From NCBI RefSeq assembly GCF_012927485.1, contig NZ_JABBPC010000003.1, forward strand, positions 33,749 through 97,748: a stretch of DNA of 64,000 nt, read 5' to 3'. This DNA is from Polaromonas sp. (GTDB taxonomy: Bacteria; Pseudomonadota; Gammaproteobacteria; Burkholderiales; Burkholderiaceae_C). This document shows, one piece after another, positions 21,320-31,839 of this stretch; positions within the stretch are counted from its first letter, which is position 1, and every line of letters starts with the position of its first letter. The position numbers were made by a program, and so were the translations under genes. The notes under the pieces were generated by a model. That model ran no database searches, was not told the DNA's origin, and worked only from the letters and a program-made list of their open reading frames with translations.

Positions 21320-21502
21320 CTCAAAAAAGCGCCAGTCCAATTCGCGGTGTTATAGCCAGATTGCCTTTCTCGCTCTGGTGTGCAGCCGATGCAGGAATTT
21401 TAACCGCAGTCCGGCCGGGGGTAGAAACCTCGTCTACCAGTAGGCTGCTGAAATGCCTCCGAGAACCTCCGACAAAGACTACTTGACTGTCTTCATTGCG
21501 GC

Positions 21503-21559
21503 CGACCGTTTGAGTTCAGCGGCTGCCGTGGGCAGTCCGCCGGAACGAAAGGTTAGCCC
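21503..21559 (-). repeat. attC-like site downstream of beta-lactamase-like cassette (degenerate)
   Basis: On the minus strand GGGCTAACC...CGGCGGACTGCC CAC GGCAGCCGCTG...AAACGGTC. The R'' box GGCTAAC is good; the R' box is decayed. It marks the distal end of the cassette array. Confidence 0.5.
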
Positions 21560-21568
21560 GCATCGCCA

Positions 21569-22641
21569 TCATCGCGGGGACTCCAAGAATGTGCGGTCAA
21601 CGCGATTCAGGAACCCGCTGGAACTGAACTCGGTGCTGTTCGCCAGCACTACTGTTGCAACGCCTCTTGTTGGATAGATACGCATCTCGCAATGAAAGCC
21701 GCCACCGCCTCCTTCCTTGAAGAAATAGGCTACGCCATGTGTTTCGCCAACGTGCCACCCTGGCGTCATGGGAATGGGTCGGCCCGCGCCATCCGTCTGC
21801 CGAGTCTCCAACAGGCGTTTGGTCTCCGGCCCGAACAGCACCGACTCGGTTCGCAACTGGTCTTGCAGGAATCGGCTGAAGCCACGTGCCGTACCAATCA
21901 GCCCGCCAAAAGCTGGGCCATTGAGGTAATGGCTGTTCAGCCGCAGCCAGTGACCTTCGTAGCCGCCCAGGAATTTGCGGTCGATAACGAGCCCTTTCAC
22001 CAAATTCATCAACGAATATTTCTTAAGATAGCCGTTGGCATGACGGGACTCGTCGGGGATGACAAAGTCCATCTCTTGCGCCGAGAGCCGCAACGGCTGG
22101 AGGATATTTTCTCGGATATAGACTGGATACGATTGGCCCGTTACTTGCTCGACTACCTTGCCAAGAAGCCAGTAACCGATATTGGAATAGGCAAACTTGC
22201 GGCCCGGTTCAAACGCAAGTTCAGGATTCTCGCGAAGCACCGTAGCAAGGGCTTCAGCCTCATTAAAACCCGAATCCTCTGCTGCCAAATGCACCCACCG
22301 AAGAGGCATCGGATTTGGAACGCCTGACGTGTGATTGAGCAGCTGACGTAGCGTGATGCCGTGACCGTGGTAAGCGGCATTCGGGAGATAGCGATCAATC
22401 ACGTCGCTAGGCTCAGCTTCCTCTGCTCTGCCAATTGTAGAATCGCGACAGCGGTAAAGGTCTTGGTCATCGAGTACGCCATCAGCGTAGTGTCGAATGT
22501 CATCGCTTTCGTACCTTGGATGTCAGCCCAGCCACCGGCATACTCGAAGAGTACCCGGTCAGCAGTTACGGCGATGTATTGCAGACCGGGAACCTCCGAC
22601 CGAACGTACTGATTCAGGTCGCTAGGCACGTTGTTGGTCAT
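21569..22641 (-). pseudogene. Serine beta-lactamase-like hydrolase, frameshifted cassette gene
   Basis: Two adjoining ORFs together make one beta-lactamase/penicillin-binding-protein-like hydrolase of about 355 aa. The first (22399-22641) has the SxxK nucleophile motif (AYSMTKTFTAVAILQL) and stops after KLSLAT. The second (21569-22402) continues with IDRYLPN, then FAYSNIGYWLLG (YxN motif) and a Gly-rich GGGGGFHC near the third motif. One missing base near 22410 separates the two frames; restoring it would give the usual SLxDVIDRYLP. No signal peptide is obvious. It may be a real pseudogene or a sequencing error. Family substrates vary (beta-lactams, esters, D-amino peptides). Confidence 0.8.
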
Positions 22642-22650
22642 CGGCAGGCC

Positions 22651-22707
22651 CTCTAACGTAAAATTGAGTGTCGGCGTAGCCGGTCTCTCTTTAATAGAAG
22701 GTTAGAC
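22651..22707 (-). repeat. attC site after M48 peptidase cassette
   Basis: 57 bp. On the minus strand it begins GTCTAAC and ends GTTAGAG, with an imperfect palindrome between (ACCGGCTACGCCGACAC). Typical integron attC ends. Confidence 0.7.
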
Positions 22708-22739
22708 CCAACTGCGGATAAGTCGAAGTGACTCCCGTT

Positions 22740-23933
22740 TTAATTTCCGGTACTGTGACATGACGGCGGAAGCTGCGTTGGTTTTATTCCTTCACCGTTC
22801 GCACAGCCCCATACGATGCGGCCTTCAGCGTCTGCTGAGGGTGTGAAGATGAGTTCGCCTAGCTTGGTTTTGACGATAAGTACCATCTTATTGGGTTCGA
22901 GCGACAATTCGCTACCGTCAACCAGTTGCGAACGGATGCCAAGACTTTCTAGCGATTCAGGAATCTTCTGGTTAGTCCGGTAGTAATTGCCTAGTGCCTC
23001 GCGTACGTTCTGCGAGCCAATAATGGCGGCGTCGATCTTTGCCTTAACCGTGTAGGCTTGGTATGCTGGAATGCCTACGGCTGCCAAGATGGCGATTATA
23101 TAAACCAGCATCAGAAAGCCGAAGCCCGCTCCCAAACGCCCAGCGTATGGAATGAACACCGCCAACAGATAGGCGAAGCCATTGCGCTTGGGCATTGGTG
23201 CTTCGATGCTCATTACGCGAGCTGCGCGCTTGGTTAGCCAAGGATAGCCAGCAGTCAGTTCGTGGAATGACATCCAGAAGCCAGAGGCGTAAATGGTCTG
23301 GCTGACGTAGGCTGCTACGTTAAGTTGTTTCCAGCGTTGGGCACCCGCAGACAATGCGGCCAGCGCTTGCGCGGCACCTTCGGGCGACCCACTACAAGCG
23401 AGCCCGTGTCGGTCGCAGGTACTTTCACGGGCACGGGAATAAGCTGCACCAAGTAGCGGTAACCACAGTACCGGCCAACGCAGCAGGTGTCCGCTCAGAT
23501 GCTTCATGCGCAAGTGTCCAAGCTCGTGGCCGATGTAGAAACGAACGCCGTCGACATGCTCGTCCATTGCATCGACCACGTTCGACATCAATACGACATA
23601 TTGCGTACCGAGAAACTTGGTGGCGAATGCATTGAGGCCGCCATTACCATTCAGGATATAGGCCTGCGGACGCTTCTTCATCTGCAACTGATCGCAGCAA
23701 GCGGTGAACTGCGCATACAGGTCGGGGAACTGTGCTTCTGACAACTCGACACCATTGCCTTTGATGTGCGCGATCAGTGTGGATTGAGCGAACAAATAAA
23801 GCAGAAAGCCAAGAGCCAGCCCGATTATTGCGCCACCGAAGGTGCCGACGATTAAGCCGAACCAGACCAGAAGGCCGAGCACTAAGGTGACAGTGCCGAG
23901 TGTGCGCTCACGGGGACAAATGAGTTTTTTCAT
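22740..23933 (-). CDS. M48-family membrane metallopeptidase with pilin-like C-terminus (cassette)
   Basis: A 397-aa protein starting at ATG 23933. Two N-terminal membrane helices (residues about 13-50) precede an M48 catalytic region with HELGH (FYIGHELGHLRMKH) and the third zinc ligand in SRARESTCDRHG. After a further membrane helix (FLMLVYIIAILAAVGIPAYQAYTVKAKI) comes a sequence resembling the helix and globular end of type IV pilins, ending GCANGEGIKPTQLPPSC. There is no prepilin peptidase leader. The combination of M48 peptidase and pilin-like domain is unusual. It lies between two attC sites, so it is a cassette gene. Confidence 0.85.
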   Translation of the reverse strand: MKKLICPRERTLGTVTLVLGLLVWFGLIVGTFGGAIIGLALGFLLYLFAQSTLIAHIKGNGVELSEAQFPDLYAQFTACCDQLQMKKRPQAYILNGNGGLNAFATKFLGTQYVVLMSNVVDAMDEHVDGVRFYIGHELGHLRMKHLSGHLLRWPVLWLPLLGAAYSRARESTCDRHGLACSGSPEGAAQALAALSAGAQRWKQLNVAAYVSQTIYASGFWMSFHELTAGYPWLTKRAARVMSIEAPMPKRNGFAYLLAVFIPYAGRLGAGFGFLMLVYIIAILAAVGIPAYQAYTVKAKIDAAIIGSQNVREALGNYYRTNQKIPESLESLGIRSQLVDGSELSLEPNKMVLIVKTKLGELIFTPSADAEGRIVWGCANGEGIKPTQLPPSCHSTGN

Positions 23934-23960
23934 AGTCAAATTTCTTCTGTCAGTAATAAG

Positions 23961-24025
23961 GCAAATGTAGGAGTGACTGGACTGTGCGGCATTTTACGCG
24001 GGTCCGGTTGAATGCAGGATTAGCG
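23961..24025 (-). repeat. Degenerate attC site after hypothetical membrane cassette
   Basis: Contains GACTGGACTGTGCGG...ACGCGGGTCCGGTTG, the same stem family as the attC sites at 24929 and 25592, but the R boxes are altered (CGCTAAT). Confidence 0.5.
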
Positions 24026-24397
24026 GTGAAACCACGTTGCAACTTTGATGTTGCATGTTGGTGTAAATCGCCAAAATACTTCCGCCATTGCTTCAAGGTT
24101 TTCATAGCCATTGATCGCTAATTTCAATTCTGATTTTGTATCAAGCAGGATTGAAATTAACTGTCCAGATTTGTATTGAAGACGTAACTTGTCTATGTCC
24201 GACAGGGGAAAACTGACTGCCGCGTTCTTGTGATTTACATAAACCGTTGCAGATTCATTATCTATTTCAAAAGTCGGGTACGCAGTACGGCCCTTTTTAA
24301 ATTTCTTATATAAGCCAAACAGGCCCTGTACAAAATAATAGAGACCGATTGCAGGAAGGATCATGCCAGAAATTTTTTCGGCGTCCACTATAAACAT
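24020..24397 (-). CDS. Hypothetical membrane protein (cassette)
   Basis: 125 aa from ATG 24397. The reading frame is open further upstream (AVYAALFFATLSSAAIMFIV, a likely membrane helix) but has no ATG there, so the true start may be lost or unusual. A second helix (ISGMILPAIGLYYFVQGLFG) and a soluble PH-like C-terminal half (ATVYVNHKNAAVSFPLSDID) follow. Low G+C compared with the host. No family recognised. Confidence 0.6.
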   Translation of the reverse strand: MFIVDAEKISGMILPAIGLYYFVQGLFGLYKKFKKGRTAYPTFEIDNESATVYVNHKNAAVSFPLSDIDKLRLQYKSGQLISILLDTKSELKLAINGYENLEAMAEVFWRFTPTCNIKVATWFHR

Positions 24398-24501
24398 AAT
24401 CGCAGCACTACTGAGCGTCGCAAAAAATAAGGCCGCGTAAACAGCCTTTTTATTTTGGCTTTTTATGTACGTGTCAGTAACTTAAAATTTCATATTCACC
24501 G

Positions 24502-24518
24502 CTAACGTTTTAGATAAC
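24502..24518 (-). repeat. Remnant of an attC site cut by IS3-type sequence
   Basis: On the minus strand GTTATCTAAAACGTTAGCG: a GTTAGC R' box and a few bases of stem remain next to the IS end. The rest of the attC is missing. Confidence 0.45.
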
Positions 24519-24929
24519 TGAACCTGCCCCAATTCCCGTACTGATCTCAATTTCAGAAGTCCGAGGTTTGCAAGATTAACTGATTCCTGCGACAAGTTCG
24601 CTGCGTAGCATTGAACCGCCAGTTAATTGGCGATTCAATGCGGCGAACGTTGCATGCGGTATGCGCCCGCAAATGCTGTGCGGTCTGATCTCGTTGTAGT
24701 CGAGTCACCATGTGGCAATGGCTTGACGGGCTTGCCCTAAAGGTTCAAACCAATTCTTATCCACGCACTCGTCCCTGAAGATGCCGTGCTTTAGTGCCCA
24801 TGTCATGAACGCCCTGCAGGTGAACTCCGACCGTTGTCAGTTTTGACAGCCCCCGGGGTAATCACGAAACGCGGCTGCTCTATCCAGCAGCCGGGTGACG
24901 CAATCCCCGCCAATGCCAAAGTCAGCTGT
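24519..24929 (-). mobile_element. Decayed IS3-family transposase remnant
   Basis: The plus-strand end TGAACCTGCCCCAATTCC resembles an IS3-family terminal repeat. Reading the minus strand I find pieces of the OrfB DDE transposase: DFGIGGDCVTRLLDRAAAFRDYP, VKTDNG (with the second catalytic Asp), EFTCRAFMTWALKHGI after a frameshift, then a deletion, FRDECVDKNWFEPLGQARQAI, an in-frame stop, LDYNEIRPHSICGRIP and a proper end LNRQLTGGSMLRSELVAGIS. The other end is missing. GATAAC borders it on both sides. Confidence 0.8.
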
Positions 24930-24994
24930 GATAACGTGGAGGTAACCGGACTGCGCAGCTTTTTGCGCAGGTCCGGTTGAGCTTAGAGTTATGC
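24929..24994 (-). repeat. attC site after methyltransferase cassette
   Basis: 66 bp. Minus strand GCATAAC ... ACCGGACCTGCGCA AAAAGC TGCGCAGTCCGGT ... GTTATCA. Strong inner stem; same family as the next attC. Confidence 0.7.
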
Positions 24995-25564
24995 GCTGCC
25001 ATGTTCTTTGGACGCGCACTCGAACAGGTTTTTCTCTTCTTTAACAATTACCCAACAATCACTGTTCAATATCTTCTTCCTAGCGCCATCCAGCGGTTGA
25101 TGGCCGCTTTCGATGAAGAGGGCGCCATTGGGTTTCAGCACACGATGCAATTCCGTCAGAAACCCGTCAGTATCTTTCACATGATGGAACATATCCAAGG
25201 CATAGATGACGTCCGCCGATTGGCTCGCTATATTGACTGGGTAGCCTGCTGAGAGAACCGGTACTACATTGCTAAAGTTCTTTTGTTCTGCTCTACGCTT
25301 GACTGACATAATTGCCAGAGGGTGAACATCAACCGCGTAGACCTTGCCTGCATCACCAACAAGTTGCGAGGCTCGTTCAATATAGCTTCCTGGCCCGCAC
25401 CCAAAATCGACTACAACACAACCCTTACGGATGCCGAAACGGTCTAATCGTTTCCCGACAGGAGCAAGGGCATCACGCATTGACAGAACCACAGACATTA
25501 AACGAAATGCGATATTCGGTAGGTACTCGACTTCGTAACCGCTTAGTGTTCTCAATAACTGCAT
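24989..25564 (-). CDS. Class I SAM-dependent methyltransferase (cassette)
   Basis: A 191-aa protein with the SAM-binding motif I (VVDFGCGPGSYIERAS), acidic end of strand 2 (VYAVDVHPLAI), and a later ALDMFHHVKDTDGF and ELHRVLKPNGALFIESGH, a typical Methyltransf_11/25 order. The substrate cannot be told. The gene ends inside the R'' box of its attC, the normal cassette layout. It starts close to the preceding attC. Confidence 0.85.
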   Translation of the reverse strand: MQLLRTLSGYEVEYLPNIAFRLMSVVLSMRDALAPVGKRLDRFGIRKGCVVVDFGCGPGSYIERASQLVGDAGKVYAVDVHPLAIMSVKRRAEQKNFSNVVPVLSAGYPVNIASQSADVIYALDMFHHVKDTDGFLTELHRVLKPNGALFIESGHQPLDGARKKILNSDCWVIVKEEKNLFECASKEHGSA

Positions 25565-26073
25565 TCTGTTTCTCCTCTGGGCGTCTTCTGTGCATAACGT
25601 TTGAATTCACCGGCCTGCGCGGATTTTCGCGCAGGTCCGGTGAAATGATGGGTTGGGCCACTTATGCTAAGTGGAAAGGTTTCTACCTTGCCAATTTGCA
25701 ACGTCTTGCTTCGTAGGAGATCAACCCTCGCTCCATGAATGACTCCAGAAGCGGCACGAACTGTCAGTCTCGGCTTGCCGGACAAACACTGCGGTGTTTC
25801 AAAGGACGCCTGATCTTTGTTGTCTGCCGTTGTGAAGCCGAGTCGTTCGACACGTAGAGTTTCCGTCATGCTTCGCTGTCCCTTTGAACTGACCTCGACA
25901 AGCAGTGCAACGTCTGAAATTTCCGACTCAAGATCATCCCAGTACAACAAAAACATTTCGGCGCAACCGCCTCCACCGGCATAAACGTGCTGTAAATGGC
26001 TCATATGTAATGCGGAGGCGGCATGTGCGGGAAACACGAATATGACCCAGGCAACGGCAAGAAGTAGGCGCAT
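25552..26073 (-). CDS. Exported hypothetical protein (cassette)
   Basis: A 173-aa ORF beginning with a signal peptide (MRLLLAVAWVIFVFPAHAASA). The mature part (CAEMFLLYWDDLESEISDVALLVEVSS) has no family I know. The last 30 residues or so are read through the attC site (25592-25658), and the ORF overlaps the next gene start by a few bases, so the natural C-terminus is encoded by the recombination site. Confidence 0.65.
   Translation of the reverse strand: MRLLLAVAWVIFVFPAHAASALHMSHLQHVYAGGGGCAEMFLLYWDDLESEISDVALLVEVSSKGQRSMTETLRVERLGFTTADNKDQASFETPQCLSGKPRLTVRAASGVIHGARVDLLRSKTLQIGKVETFPLSISGPTHHFTGPARKSAQAGEFKRYAQKTPRGETECSY
25592..25658 (-). repeat. attC site after exported-protein cassette
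   Basis: 67 bp. Minus strand GCCCAAC ... ACCGGACCTGCGCG AAAATC CGCGCAGGCCGGT ... GTTATGC. Both end boxes match the RYYYAAC and GTTRRRY patterns closely. Confidence 0.8.
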
Positions 26074-26076
26074 GAT

Positions 26077-26541
26077 TTAAGCGGCCCAACGTAGGGCTAA
26101 CCGGCGCGGCGCGGCTTTATCGCGCCGCGTCCAGCGACTGAAAGGAGCGAGGTTGAGCGCCGGGTTAGCCCTTGGGTTGAACGGGAGCGCTGTTTTCTTT
26201 GTGTGAATGATAAGCGCCAACGGGGATGCGAGAAAGGATGCCAAACGCAAAACTTGCGACGCGGCCAAACCACGCAGCGCCAGCGGTGGCAAAGAGCGAC
26301 GTTGAGCCCGCGCCGCCGCGTGATAACACCGTGCCCCCACCCAAGTTAGAAGACGCGATGCCACCGCAGAACGTTGGGAACGAAAAAGAAAATGAACGCC
26401 AGCCACACACGAGAACCGGCCTGCAAGGCGCATGAAACGGCGACCTACAGAAGAAGCCGGCGGAGAGCCAATAAGCACGGGCGTTGCAGCCCGATGCCTG
26501 TTGAGGAAGCCGAAATGAGAAGCAAGAAATTCCATGAACAC
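26077..26541 (-). CDS. Uncertain small cassette ORF
   Basis: Between two attC sites lies about 380 bp with two overlapping minus-strand ORFs. This one starts MFMEFLASHFGFLNRH, near the cassette start, and is basic; it runs through the attC. The other (26165-26596) starts inside the upstream attC and reads FSFSFPTFCGGIASSNLGGG. Neither has a recognisable domain or a clear ribosome site, and both could be chance frames in G+C-rich DNA. I list one to mark the cassette. Confidence 0.3.
   Translation of the reverse strand: MFMEFLASHFGFLNRHRAATPVLIGSPPASSVGRRFMRLAGRFSCVAGVHFLFRSQRSAVASRLLTWVGARCYHAAARAQRRSLPPLALRGLAASQVLRLASFLASPLALIIHTKKTALPFNPRANPALNLAPFSRWTRRDKAAPRRLALRWAA
26084..26171 (-). repeat. 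attC site (compound ends)
   Basis: Minus strand GGGCTAACCCGGCGCTCAACC...GCGGCGCG ATAAAG CCGCGCCGCGCCGGTTAGCCCTAC GTTGGGC. Two nested pairs of end boxes are present (GCTCAAC/GTTGGGC and GGCTAAC/GTTAGCC). Confidence 0.75.
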
Positions 26542-26547
26542 CGTGAG

Positions 26548-26634
26548 GGCTAACGTTGGCGCTGTCCGGCACGCAGCACGCGCCGCGAAGCGGCATCCTG
26601 CAGCTGGGTGTCCGCGACGAGCAATCGGTTATGA
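26548..26634 (-). repeat. attC site after exported repeat-protein cassette
   Basis: About 87 bp. Minus strand begins TCATAAC and ends GTTAGCC, with a GCCGCTTCGCGGCG stem inside. Confidence 0.65.
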
Positions 26635-26644
26635 ATCGCGGTGG

Positions 26645-27319
26645 TCATGGTCGCCGCATCTTGCTTTGTAGATCCGCGACAAAGCTCGGATCAATCTCGG
26701 CGTGACGCGGCGTGCTTTCAGCAAGTTGAATCTTCTTCCAGGCATCACGGTAATTGCCAATATAGAACAGCGTGATTGCCCAGTTTTGCAGATTCAACGT
26801 GTGCTGTGGTGACTTTTCATAGAGCCGCGCGAAGCGGGCGAAGGCATTCTTGAGTAGCGCATCATCCTTTGTTTGAGCACCAGCGCTGCCGAGCGCTTTT
26901 GCGTAGTCAACGGCGAAATCTATGTCACCGCCGACAGAGCTTTCTGCCTCCGCAAACAGCTTCAGGGAAGCAGAAATGTTTCCAGCTTCCGCCTGGATTG
27001 CGGCCATCCCCCAAAGTGCACTGCCGCTTGCATTGTCGATCAACCATGCTTGATTAAAGCGCCGCATGGCGTCCGGCTTGTTGCCCTGACGTAGGAGCCG
27101 CCAGCCACGAGCCGAGGCATCGTCCGCAGCCTTCCTCCGGTTTCCCTTGTAGTAGTCATCGATGCCGGCGAGGAATTCTTCATCCGCAGCCTTCTGCATG
27201 GCGCTTTTCGGCGCTACACCGTACTTTGGCTGGAGGTTGGTGTCCTGCGCAAATACGACTGATGTAGCGAACCCCGCCGAAAATAGCAAGGCCAAAATAA
27301 GTGCGCGAAAAGGGGACAT
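26645..27319 (-). CDS. Exported TPR-like protein (cassette)
   Basis: The ORF-track version (319 aa) starts in the upstream attC and cassette; the natural start is ATG 27319 (MSPFRALILALLFSAGFATS), giving 224 aa with a signal peptide cut after SVVFA. The mature part has helix pairs typical of tetratricopeptide repeats (GWRLLRQGNKPDAMRRFNQAWLIDNASGSALWGMAAIQAEAG; NLQNWAITLFYIGNYRDAWKKI). Probably a periplasmic protein-interaction scaffold. Its partner is unknown. Confidence 0.75.
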   Translation of the reverse strand: MSPFRALILALLFSAGFATSVVFAQDTNLQPKYGVAPKSAMQKAADEEFLAGIDDYYKGNRRKAADDASARGWRLLRQGNKPDAMRRFNQAWLIDNASGSALWGMAAIQAEAGNISASLKLFAEAESSVGGDIDFAVDYAKALGSAGAQTKDDALLKNAFARFARLYEKSPQHTLNLQNWAITLFYIGNYRDAWKKIQLAESTPRHAEIDPSFVADLQSKMRRP

Positions 27320-27326
27320 GAGAGGT

Positions 27327-27395
27327 TCATAACGTTGAAGCTCAGCGGCGCTGCGCGGCTTTATCGCGCAGCGTCCCCTGGAGCGAGGGTAAGCC
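27327..27395 (-). repeat. attC site after reductase cassette
   Basis: Minus strand GGCTTAC...ACGCTGCGCG ATAAAG CCGCGCAGCG...GTTATGA. The stem resembles that at 26084-26171. Confidence 0.65.
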
Positions 27396-27407
27396 GGTGC
27401 AAATGAG

Positions 27408-27998
27408 CTACTTCGCGCGAACATATCGGCAAACCTGTGCGCCCGTGCTGGCTTTGGTTGTTGACTCCAGCGTGAAAGGGATTGCCTTTCCGTTCTCAGC
27501 GAAGATCGTTTTTCCCCCACCGAGGACAATCGGTTCGATTGTGAGCAGCAACTCATCGACAAGGTCGGCGGCGAACAACGATCGAACCATTGTCGCACTG
27601 CCATACACGTAGATGTAGCCTCCGGGTCGCGCGCGTAACTCAGACACCGTCCTCAAGAAGTCGGCGCCACGAATGATCGTGGTGGGGTTCCATGTTGCAT
27701 CTTTCTCGGTGAGAGTATCGGAAACCACGTACTTTTGGACGCGATTGATCCAATCGGTGAATGGATCTCCTGAGCGACTGGGCCATGCAGCGGCCGAGAC
27801 CTGATAAGTACGGCGTCCTTGCAAGAGCGCGTCACTCTTTGCAGCGAGTTCCGCGTACATGCTGCCCATCGTCACTGGGTCAAAGTATTTCATTGACCAT
27901 CCGCCATGACTGAAGCCGCCGTCGGTGTCCTCGCTAGCTCCCCCTGGAGCTTGCACGACACCGTCGAGGCTGATGAACTCTGTGATGAGCGTTTTCAT
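27408..27998 (-). CDS. RibD/DHFR-like reductase (cassette)
   Basis: A 196-aa protein starting MKTLITEFISLDGVVQAPGG, the signature of the RibD C-terminal domain/dihydrofolate-reductase-like family. ALLQGRRTYQVSAAAWP, YVVSDTLTEKDATWNPTTII and YGSATMVRSLFAADLVDELLLTIEPIVLGGGKTIF follow. These enzymes bind NADPH; many are of unknown substrate. An AGGAGA ribosome site precedes the ATG at 27998. Integron arrays often carry DHFR-fold genes, but this is not a known trimethoprim-resistance dfr. Confidence 0.85.
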   Translation of the reverse strand: MKTLITEFISLDGVVQAPGGASEDTDGGFSHGGWSMKYFDPVTMGSMYAELAAKSDALLQGRRTYQVSAAAWPSRSGDPFTDWINRVQKYVVSDTLTEKDATWNPTTIIRGADFLRTVSELRARPGGYIYVYGSATMVRSLFAADLVDELLLTIEPIVLGGGKTIFAENGKAIPFTLESTTKASTGAQVCRYVRAK

Positions 27999-28050
27999 GA
28001 AGTCTCCTGATTTTGTGAGTGTCTTGAAGTGAGTCAGCGGCACTTGTGCC

Positions 28051-28108
28051 GGCTAATGCTGGAGTTAAGCCGCCGCCGAAGGCGGTCGGCTGCAATGACC
28101 TGTTAGGC
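28051..28108 (-). repeat. attC site after DUF1579-like cassette
   Basis: 58 bp. Minus strand GCCTAAC AGGTCATTGCAGCCGACCGCC TTCG GCGGCGGCTTAA...ATTAGCC. Confidence 0.7.
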
Positions 28109-28163
28109 AATGCGCTACCACTGGCGGCAACATTCTGAACAACGGGCCCGGCGGATACGGGGC

Positions 28164-28688
28164 CTAGTCGATCTTCCTCATGGTCACCGTCATCGATGGC
28201 ACCCCATGCTTGCCGTCGTCAGAGCGCTCGTGACGCGCCGTCAGCGTCTTGCCCTCGTCCGTGAACACTCCCGTGCAGCGCGTGCGCGCACCTTGCCACG
28301 CCCAGATGCCGTCCCGGAACGACAGCGTTTGCGCCGCGGTGTTCCCTTGGCTGTCGAAGAAGTGAGTTCTAAACTGGCCGCTTGCGGAATCGTAGCCGAT
28401 GACCTCGAGCCCTCCCACGTCGCTAGGCCCGATGCGGCCGAATGCGGGGTGCATGACGAAGTGGCCACCCGGCACCCAGTTGTACACGTCGCTGGCGAGG
28501 ATTCGCGCGGGGAGAACCTCTGCACTCCCTGCCGTCTCGCCCTCGGTGATCGAACGGCCGATGAGCACATTGAGGCGGTCTAGCTCCGGCGCGCGCTGCA
28601 CTGCGCCCGTGACCCGGGCGGTCGCGGCACCAGTGGGGAGCTCAAAGAGGCGCTCGGAACTCCGGACAGGGGTGGCTTTCTTCGTCAT
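28164..28688 (-). CDS. DUF1579-like hypothetical protein (cassette)
   Basis: A 174-aa soluble protein. ELDRLNVLIGRSITEGE, ASDVYNWVPGGHFVMH, GLEVIGYDSASGQFRTHFFDSQG and a closing SMTVTMRKID are the beta-barrel pattern of DUF1579-type proteins (lipocalin-like). The role is unknown; such proteins are common passengers in integron arrays. Start at ATG 28688 follows a GGGCAATCG stretch with weak ribosome site. Confidence 0.75.
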   Translation of the reverse strand: MTKKATPVRSSERLFELPTGAATARVTGAVQRAPELDRLNVLIGRSITEGETAGSAEVLPARILASDVYNWVPGGHFVMHPAFGRIGPSDVGGLEVIGYDSASGQFRTHFFDSQGNTAAQTLSFRDGIWAWQGARTRCTGVFTDEGKTLTARHERSDDGKHGVPSMTVTMRKID

Positions 28689-28734
28689 CGCGATTGCCCT
28701 TCGGTTGATGAGGTGCGTTGTCAGTTGTCGCGCT

Positions 28735-28794
28735 GCCTAACGTTTGAGTTAAGGGGCGCGCTTTGGCGCGTCCCGCTTGATGGATGGGTTAGGG
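28735..28794 (-). repeat. attC site after membrane-protein cassette
   Basis: 60 bp. Minus strand CCCTAAC CCATCCATCAAGCGGGACGCGCC AAAGC GCGCCCCTTAACTCAAAC GTTAGGC; the R' box is a perfect GTTRRRY. Confidence 0.8.
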
Positions 28795-28801
28795 TGCCTA
28801 T

Positions 28802-29205
28802 TCACTGAACCTCAAATAGTGCTTTAACATGAGGTTTGGATAAATAGACCATGATTAGCACGGCAATTCCAATGCCCACCAACTGAAGAACTGTATTGGC
28901 AATAGTGAACTCCTGCTTAGGCAGGATTGGAAAAATGGCAATAATGCTTAATACCACTGCTATTGCCGATAGCCACTTGGTAAGTTTACATCCCCACTCT
29001 TGCAAAGACCATAAACCGTAAACTGACGCTAACATAAACACCCCAAGAACCATAAGTAGGGCACCGCCTAATGCAAAGAGGCTGCTGCCTTTAGGAAGAG
29101 CGCTAAACAAAAGTAAATACAGCCAAGTGGAAAGTAAATAATGCCGCAAAAGGCATAATAAACAGCTGTGGCGGTTATGCCGAATGGTTTTTTTGTTGTT
29201 GCCAT
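28802..29205 (-). pseudogene. Small membrane protein, frameshifted cassette gene
   Basis: The ORF track gives 28802-29149 from a TTG. A better start is ATG 29205 (MATTKKPFGITATAVYYAFCGIIY) with AGGAGT 7 nt upstream, but it is in another frame; the two frames meet near 29130. Joined, they give about 134 aa with three to four membrane helices (ALGGALLMVLGVFMLASVYGLW; WLSAIAVVLSIIAIFPIL; VLQLVGIGIAVLIMVYLS). The 404-nt span is not divisible by three. Either a recent pseudogene or a base error. Confidence 0.7.
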
Positions 29206-29226
29206 TTGAAACTCCTGTGGTTGAAA

Positions 29227-29286
29227 CCCTAACGCCTGAATTATGCCGAACCGCGAAGCGGTTTCGGCTTGAATGAATTGTTAGAC
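29227..29286 (-). repeat. attC site of the first cassette
   Basis: 60 bp. Minus strand GTCTAAC AATTCATTCAAGCCGAAACCGC TTC GCGGTTCGGCATAATTCAGGC GTTAGGG. The stop codon of the first cassette gene lies in its R'' box. Confidence 0.8.
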
Positions 29287-29894: not shown

Positions 29895-30237
29895 GTGAGC
29901 TGGCATGGGCGTGATGGGCAAATGCAACATTCCCGTAGCATGGGGGACGCTGAGGCGACGCAGTTCCTGACCACGCTCGCCAATGAGCGGCGGGTGTCGG
30001 TGTCACCGCACAATCAGGCGCTCAGTGCCTTGCTGTTTTTATACCGCGAGGTGCTGGCAATTGATTTGCCCTGGCTTACCGAGGTCCAGCGCCCGACCCG
30101 TCCCAAGCAGATTCTTTCTGCTTTGACCAAGGCCAAGTTTGCGGCCCTTTCGGGCGCAATGGGAACGATAAGGCTTTGTTGGCCAAGCTGCTGTATGACA
30201 CGGCTAACCCGCGGGATGCGCTCGGCAGCGTGGTGTG
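29895..30237 (+). pseudogene. intI: Integron integrase (IntI) pseudogene
   Basis: The ORF at 29895 reads SMGDAEATQFLTTLANERR, VSVSPHNQALSALLFLYREV and DLPWLTEVQRPTRPKQI, closely similar to the N-terminal SAM-like domain of IntI (compare the IntI1 pattern [35 protein letters not shown]). Near 30165 the frame shifts and continues as KALLAKLLYDTANPRDALGSVV, matching the start of the catalytic domain (LFAQLLYGTGMRISE), with the catalytic Arg region degraded. The rest, including the HxxR and Tyr, is gone. It is divergent from the cassettes, the classical integron arrangement. The enzyme cannot work. Confidence 0.88.
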
Positions 30238-30519
30238 ATAAGTGCCGACTCCCGCTGTATAGCAATCGCCGCAAATACCCCTGCTCTTGCCGCGCAGCTC
30301 CGCAAGGCACAAGACCCGCCTACCAGCGCGTCCCGCTGACTCGGAATTTGTGCCCAAATCGGCGCTCCCGTTTCCGAAACCTCGAATGCCCTAGCCCGAA
30401 TTGGGATCTAAGCCCAATTCAGCCAGGTCACCGGCAGGGTTGGAGGGTTGGTACCCGCCGATTTCTGGGCTTTAACGTCAGGAGGCGTGGGCCAACGGCC
30501 CAAACCCTGCCGATAAAGA
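30238..30519. other. Gene-free stretch between intI remnant and aceA
   Basis: No convincing coding sequence; small ORFs here have no domains. GGGCCGTTGGCCC near 30490, downstream of aceA on the minus strand, may be a weak terminator stem. Probably further intI decay plus aceA 3' region. Confidence 0.4.
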
Positions 30520-31839
30520 TCAGTGGAACTGCTCTTCTTCAGTCGAACCGGTCAACGCGGTGACGCTGGACTTGCCGCCCTGGATGACTGTCGTGACTTC
30601 GTCGAAGTACCCGGTGCCGACTTCTTGCTGGTGCGACACGAATGTGTAGCCGCGGTCGCGTGCTGCAAATTCAGGCTCTTGCACTTTTTCGATATAGGCG
30701 GTCATGCCGCGCTTCACGTAGTCCTGCGCCAAGTCGAACATGTTGTACCACATGGAGTGGATGCCCGCCAGCGTGATGAACTGGTATTTGTAGCCCATGG
30801 CACCAAGCTCTTTCTGGAACTTGGCAATGGTTGCATCGTCGAGGTTTTTCTTCCAGTTAAACGATGGGGAACAGTTGTAAGCCAGCATTTTCCCGGGGTG
30901 AACCTTGTGCACGGCATCCGCAAATTTCTTTGCAAATCCAAGGTCAGGCGTACCGGTTTCGCACCAAACGAGATCAGCGTAGTGGGCGTAAGCAATGGCG
31001 CGTGAAATGGCTTGGTCCATCCCTTTGTTGGTTTTGTAAAAACCTTCCGCCGTGCGCTCGCCAGTGATAAATGGTTTGTCGTTCTCGTCGTAGTCGCTGG
31101 TCAGCAAATCAGCAGCTTCTGCGTCGGTACGGGCGATCACCAGGGTCGGCACGCCGCAAACGTCGGCGGCCATGCGGGCCGCGATCAATTTCTGGCACGC
31201 TTCGGCTGTAGGCACCAGCACCTTGCCGCCCATGTGGCCGCATTTTTTGACCGATGCAAGCTGGTCTTCCCAATGCACGCCGGCCGCGCCAGCCTTGATC
31301 ATGGCTTTCATTAATTCAAAGGCGTTGAGCACGCCGCCGAAGCCAGCTTCCGCATCCGCCACGATGGGCGCGAAATTGTCGATGTAGCCTTTGTCACCAG
31401 CGTCGATGCCCTTGGCGTGCTGGATTTCGTCAGCGCGGCGAAAAGTGTTGTTGATGCGCTCAACCACCGTCGGAACGGAGTCAACCGGATACAGTGACTG
31501 GTCGGGATACATGGAAGCGTAGCTGTTGTTGTCAGCGGCCACTTGCCAGCCGGACAGGTAAATCGCCTTGACGCCGGCCTTGACCTGCTGCATGGCTTGC
31601 CCACCGGTTAGCGCACCGAGGCAATTGACGTAGGGCTCGTCGTTGACCAGATTCCAGAGCTTTTCGGCGCCACGGCGAGCCAACGTGTGTTCAATCGGGA
31701 AAGAGCCGCGGAGGCGGACCACGTCGGCGGCACTGTAACCGCGCTTGATCCCTTTCCAGCGCGGATTGGTGGCCCAGTCTTTTTCAAGGGCAGAGATTTG
31801 TTGCGCGCGGCTCAATTGTTCAGTCAAGGTTTGTGGCAT
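30520..31839 (-). CDS. aceA: Isocitrate lyase
   Basis: A 439-aa isocitrate lyase with the catalytic Cys signature KKCGHMGGK and the substrate-binding NCSPSFNW. It splits isocitrate to glyoxylate and succinate, the first step of the glyoxylate bypass, needed for growth on acetate or fatty acids. It stands alone on the minus strand with a long AT-rich upstream region carrying two palindromes. Acetyl-CoA synthetase is encoded at 45.7 kb, consistent with acetate use. Confidence 0.97.

Follow-up and report, generated by a model that had tools for sequence, protein, structure and literature searches.

What would a membrane protease do with a pilin fold that has no leader, and has its place in an integron cassette array anything to do with the answer? 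These questions are raised by a reading frame in the window (by which we mean the whole 64-kb stretch of DNA analysed) that joins an M48 metallopeptidase to a type IV pilin-like end. Such an M48-pilin fusion is apparently undescribed, judged by the titles and abstracts listed in searches of open-licence PMC papers. The coordinates, strand and frame that an earlier note on this DNA had given for the gene were found to be correct, and its parts are as follows.

22740..23933, minus strand: M48-pilin coding sequence, 397 aa, ATG at 23933 and stop at 22740 (homologs)
23202..23933, minus strand: residues 1-244, N-terminal two-helix membrane hairpin and M48 core (Pfam PF01435, invariance, structural model, Ste24p match)
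22743..23177, minus strand: residues 253-397, leaderless pilin module (phmmer, AlphaFold, Foldseek matches to 1ay2 and 4v1j, conservation)

The M48 half and the pilin-like tail

The M48 region and its HELGH motif had been recognised from the letters alone, and the profile search bore this out. PF01435 (Peptidase_M48) covers residues 67-147 with E 7.9e-15, its score of 55.6 bits lying above the gathering score of 20.3 bits, and all 40 family members searched against Pfam matched M48 at E <= 0.001. The zinc site is made up of HELGH at 136-140 and the third ligand E170, together with D174; H136, E137, H140, E170 and D174 are all invariant in 89 distinct full-length sequences. An AlphaFold2 model was built from a 40-sequence alignment (mean pLDDT 87). 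It can be seen from this model that two predicted helices (residues 7-30 and 34-60) stand ahead of the M48 core, and that behind the core come a helix of 42 residues (265-306), a second, short one and a four-stranded antiparallel sheet. By its sequence, the protein is predicted to act as a protease of the HtpX/Ste24 kind. The M48 half, which is presumably cytosolic, also has conserved cysteines (C79 in 89 of 89 sequences, C80 and C173 in 88 of 89, C180 in 81 of 89), and these possibly have a structural or redox-sensitive role.

The C-terminal part had been described as resembling a pilin stalk with a cysteine-containing, pilin-like end. In a phmmer search against PDB, residues 248-397 alone matched gonococcal PilE/PilA with E 1e-9, residues 274-339 being aligned. 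When the whole model was compared with PDB by Foldseek, the top match was gonococcal pilin 1ay2 (E 5.6e-4, probability 1.00, 150 columns) and the second was Ste24p 4il3 (E 0.033, probability 1.00). With the tail alone, 1ay2 was found (E 4e-5, TM 0.61) together with the meningococcal pilin 4v1j; a comparison of the predicted structure with pilin structures was the check that the earlier note had proposed, and a pilin fold is what the prediction gave. The tail consists of a membrane helix (265-291) that has no Glu5, a beta sheet (342-379) and the residues W375-C377...C392. W375, C377 and C392 are invariant in the 89 sequences and have their counterpart in the W-C...C loop at the C terminus of PilE, so that the cysteine end can be identified as this conserved loop. 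Of the 40 family members, 15 matched the Pfam family Pilin (PF00114) at E <= 0.001, the query protein itself falling below. Because both halves are recognised by sequence matches and by predicted fold, the identity of the protein as an M48-pilin fusion holds as first claimed.

The claim that a prepilin leader is missing was confirmed, and the loss goes further than the leader. Class III signal peptide, leader and prepilin peptidase site are absent from the protein, its pilin helix (265-306) being internal, and no prepilin leader was found in any of the 89 full-length homologs. In addition, neither Glu5 nor any other D or E occurs between residues 264 and 288 of the tail helix (0 of 89 sequences). 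A class III signal peptide is a mark of assembly-competent pilins, and so, with few exceptions, is Glu5 (PMC4471445, PMC10191384). The pilin fold is thus present, yet the protein, as judged from its sequence, cannot be processed as a pilin.

Integron setting and the family

The attC-like sites around the gene were detected with a covariance model, R2, which was derived from six sites of the array, the two sites flanking the gene being left out. The features of this setting are given below.

22651..22707, minus strand: attC-like site at the end of the M48-pilin cassette, just downstream of the gene (R2, E 0.02)
23960..24025, minus strand: degenerate attC-like site of the preceding cassette, just upstream of the gene (R2, E 0.13)
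21501..29286, minus strand: degenerate integron cassette array with ten attC-like sites (R2)
29286-29227, 28794-28735, 28108-28051, 27395-27327, 26170-26084, minus strand: first five attC-like sites of the array (R2)
25658-25592, 24994-24929, 24025-23960, 22707-22651, 21558-21501, minus strand: last five attC-like sites of the array (R2)
29895..30563, plus strand: truncated integron-integrase remnant (TIGR02249 positions 31-110 only; Pfam Phage_int_SAM_4)

R2 recovered both flanking sites and two more that it had not seen, and all ten of its matches in the 64 kb fall within the array and on one strand. A home-made attC scorer was set aside because of its noise. No functional integron integrase was found in the 64-kb window but only the fragment, whose TIGR02249 match lies at window positions 29910-30149 (C11:63658-63897). 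Within the array, the neighbour cassette at 21569-22641 (minus strand) resembles by eye a beta-lactamase-type serine hydrolase; its coding sequence is broken near 22400 and lies in two frames, and it is therefore probably a pseudogene. A fragment that looks by eye like an IS3-type transposase and has a stop (GIFRDECVDKNWFEPL...) lies at 24630-24830 (minus strand), and the cassette protein at 25552-26073 (minus strand) gave a sub-threshold Pfam match to IrmA (E 1.4e-4).

The earlier note had presented the fusion as carried by a cassette, which is right for the copy in the window, with attC on both sides, but does not hold as a trait of the family. R1, an earlier sequence-only attC model made from the array of this window alone, found attC in two of 80 homologous loci, a count from a limited, single-array detector that may miss diverged attC sites elsewhere. 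In one of the two (L033, the closest relative, with 89% identity) attC follows the gene at a distance of about 40 bp; in the other (L054) it lies about 1.7 kb downstream. Gene neighbours, pilus genes or others, were not conserved across the homologous loci under crude gene calling, and the idea of an operon partner was given up on that account. With so few attC sites and no conserved neighbours, cassette capture looks occasional: the gene here is integron-captured, while the family is otherwise mostly outside integrons. For the same two reasons, a mobile cassette as the essence of the fusion was rejected, and the earlier view that mobility is the point of combining the two domains was not sustained.

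When one genome per species was scanned, 231 coding stretches related to the query were obtained, the best 80 of which show 42-89% identity and are mostly full length. Both halves are present in each of 89 distinct homologs of full length; these show 42-89% identity and come mostly from Beta- and Gammaproteobacteria. In a separate search, a close match was found in about 26 of 401 home-family genomes and in none of the five further genomes that this sample contains from the same genus. In ten pairs dN was far below dS, the ratio being about 0.22-0.44 for the tail and about 0.02-0.19 for the M48 half. This indicates that both halves are under purifying selection, the tail evolving faster. One homolog (L028, G122:C1:244464-255135) carries an interruption of about 9.5 kb at residue 171. 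Viral contigs were searched for relatives and none was found, so that a phage origin was rejected.

The tail as a module, PilT and possible roles

When 369 genomes of the class were searched with a tail profile, further leaderless tails were matched besides ordinary pilins. Such tails end zinc-ribbon/DUF2628 membrane proteins (L118, L124 and P0002 of a Variovorax megaplasmid), a TM2-domain membrane protein (L126) and recurrent lipoprotein-like proteins of about 740 aa (about 700-800; L127, L144-L147, L149-L153), one of which was tested against Pfam with only the pilin part reported. L157 and L113:2386-3363 (Variovorax plasmid) also belong to the group of zinc-ribbon/DUF2628 and TM2 membrane proteins with such a tail. 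The ~740-aa proteins carry a lipoprotein-like signal, and it is puzzling how the pilin helix would be oriented if they have a periplasmic body. Tail-less relatives of the M48 core were found at L179 and in the family to which Komagataeibacter belongs (L168-L171), and a further related core, L178, has a non-pilin end. Since the tail occurs on other proteins and M48 cores occur without it, the tail is a module that can be separated from the protease.

The presence of PilT was scored by the TIGR01420 cut-off. PilT was over the cut-off in 26 of 27 genomes bearing the tailed fusion and was not over it in five of six genomes with tail-less cores (Fisher p 1e-4, phylogeny not corrected for). Among the 27, the sole genome without PilT over the cut-off is that of Komagataeibacter nataicola (L075). 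Its fusion has the most deviant tail in the family (identity of 26%, as opposed to 64% for the M48 half; z -4.05). In the home family PilT is near-universal (389 of 401 genomes, 97%), and co-occurrence there is therefore uninformative. The tail-less cores form a subfamily of their own, concentrated in one family and with 32-37% identity to the Komagataeibacter protein, and the correlation between tail and PilT may for that reason be phylogenetic. The link is suggestive only.

The reading that we put first, at a little short of an even chance, is that an HtpX/Ste24-like inner-membrane protease carries a non-assembling pilin module as a docking device for the pool of pilins or for the machinery of the type IV pilus (T4P). 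Both folds, the invariant active-site residues, the loss of assembly features and the purifying selection on both halves were computed. By analogy with what is generally known of HtpX/Ste24 and of pilins, the M48 active site would lie on the cytosolic side of the inner membrane, behind the two-helix N-terminal hairpin; the hydrophobic pilin helix would form the last membrane helix, and the pilin head, closed at its C terminus by a disulfide, would point into the periplasm. Without leader, Gly-Phe site and Glu5, and tethered to 250 residues of protease, the module would be neither cut by prepilin peptidase nor polymerised, so that it would stay in the inner membrane. There it may dock the protease on the membrane pilin pool or the pilus platform by pilin-pilin or pilin-machine contacts, and this docking may select the substrates, misfolded or surplus pilins and pilus-associated membrane proteins, which would then be cleaved. 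A role in pilus processing or quality control is plausible and is the leading candidate mechanism. If the docking is true, the protein is a candidate protease for inner-membrane pilin turnover. A wider proposal, which we consider rather unlikely, is that leaderless C-terminal pilin modules are a distinct, unnamed class of docking domains that recruit membrane proteins to the T4P machinery or the pilin pool, the M48 member being a dedicated pilin-turnover protease.

A serious possibility, and the main rival to docking, is that the tail is an anchor and periplasmic envelope sensor derived from a pilin gene, on a protease engaged in general HtpX-like quality control with no pilus link. This would account for the same tail on the DUF2628, TM2 and ~740-aa lipoprotein-like proteins, which have no obvious pilus role, for the fusion kept in Komagataeibacter without PilT, and for the absence of adjoining pilus genes. 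It would account less well for the retention of the entire pilin fold, W-C...C loop included, rather than the helix alone, and the most diverged tail is that of the one PilT-less genome. It seems improbable that the protein is a signalling protease that modulates pili or reads their state, with its tethered pilin at the pilus base or in a minor-pilin complex and its activity switched by assembly or retraction: no partner gene was found and the tether would block extraction from the membrane, even though Glu5 is lost here as in a tip-capping minor pilin (PMC10191384) and PilT accompanies the tailed fusion in all genomes but one.

A defence cassette, against phages or otherwise, is very improbable. 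Pili serve as phage receptors, and the gene does lie in an integron cassette array; however, PADLOC gave no match for the protein, attC was seen in only the two loci of the 80 scanned, and viral contigs held no relative, which leaves the phage-resistance function suggested earlier without support. Finally, an artefact, in which an M48 gene and a pilin gene would have been joined by a frameshift or in assembly, can be dismissed with near certainty, nothing having been found in its favour: the sequence error that the earlier note had allowed for is ruled out by 89 homologs with the identical join in many independent genomes and by dN/dS well below 1 on either side of it.

Comparison with known systems

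The protein shares with HtpX/Ste24 the HExxH...E zinc site and the N-terminal membrane hairpin, and Ste24p was its second structural match. In contrast to them, its C-terminal third is a pilin module, and its score stays far under the NCBIfam HtpX equivalog cut-off (34.7 against 369 bits). With the type IVa pilins (PilE/PilA) it has in common the helix and four-stranded sheet and the C-terminal W-C...LPxxC loop, 1ay2 being the top match; unlike these pilins it has no leader, no Gly-Phe cleavage site and no Glu5, and its helix is internal instead of N-terminal. The modular pilins (PMC8179133) likewise join a functional module to a pilin, and predicted S74 and M26 peptidase modules are among them, but the query has its domains in the opposite order and lacks the class III signal peptide. 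The survey of these proteins, which comprised 264 architectures, required an N-terminal IPR012902 signature plus an extra domain (PMC8179133), and the reversed M48-pilin order was therefore probably missed. The DUF2628-pilin and TM2-pilin proteins (WP_068674268.1 of Variovorax; L118, L124, L126) are, like the query, membrane proteins with a leaderless C-terminal tail, but they contain no protease. Membrane proteins thus reuse the pilin fold as a module at their C terminus, opposite to the arrangement in the published modular pilins.
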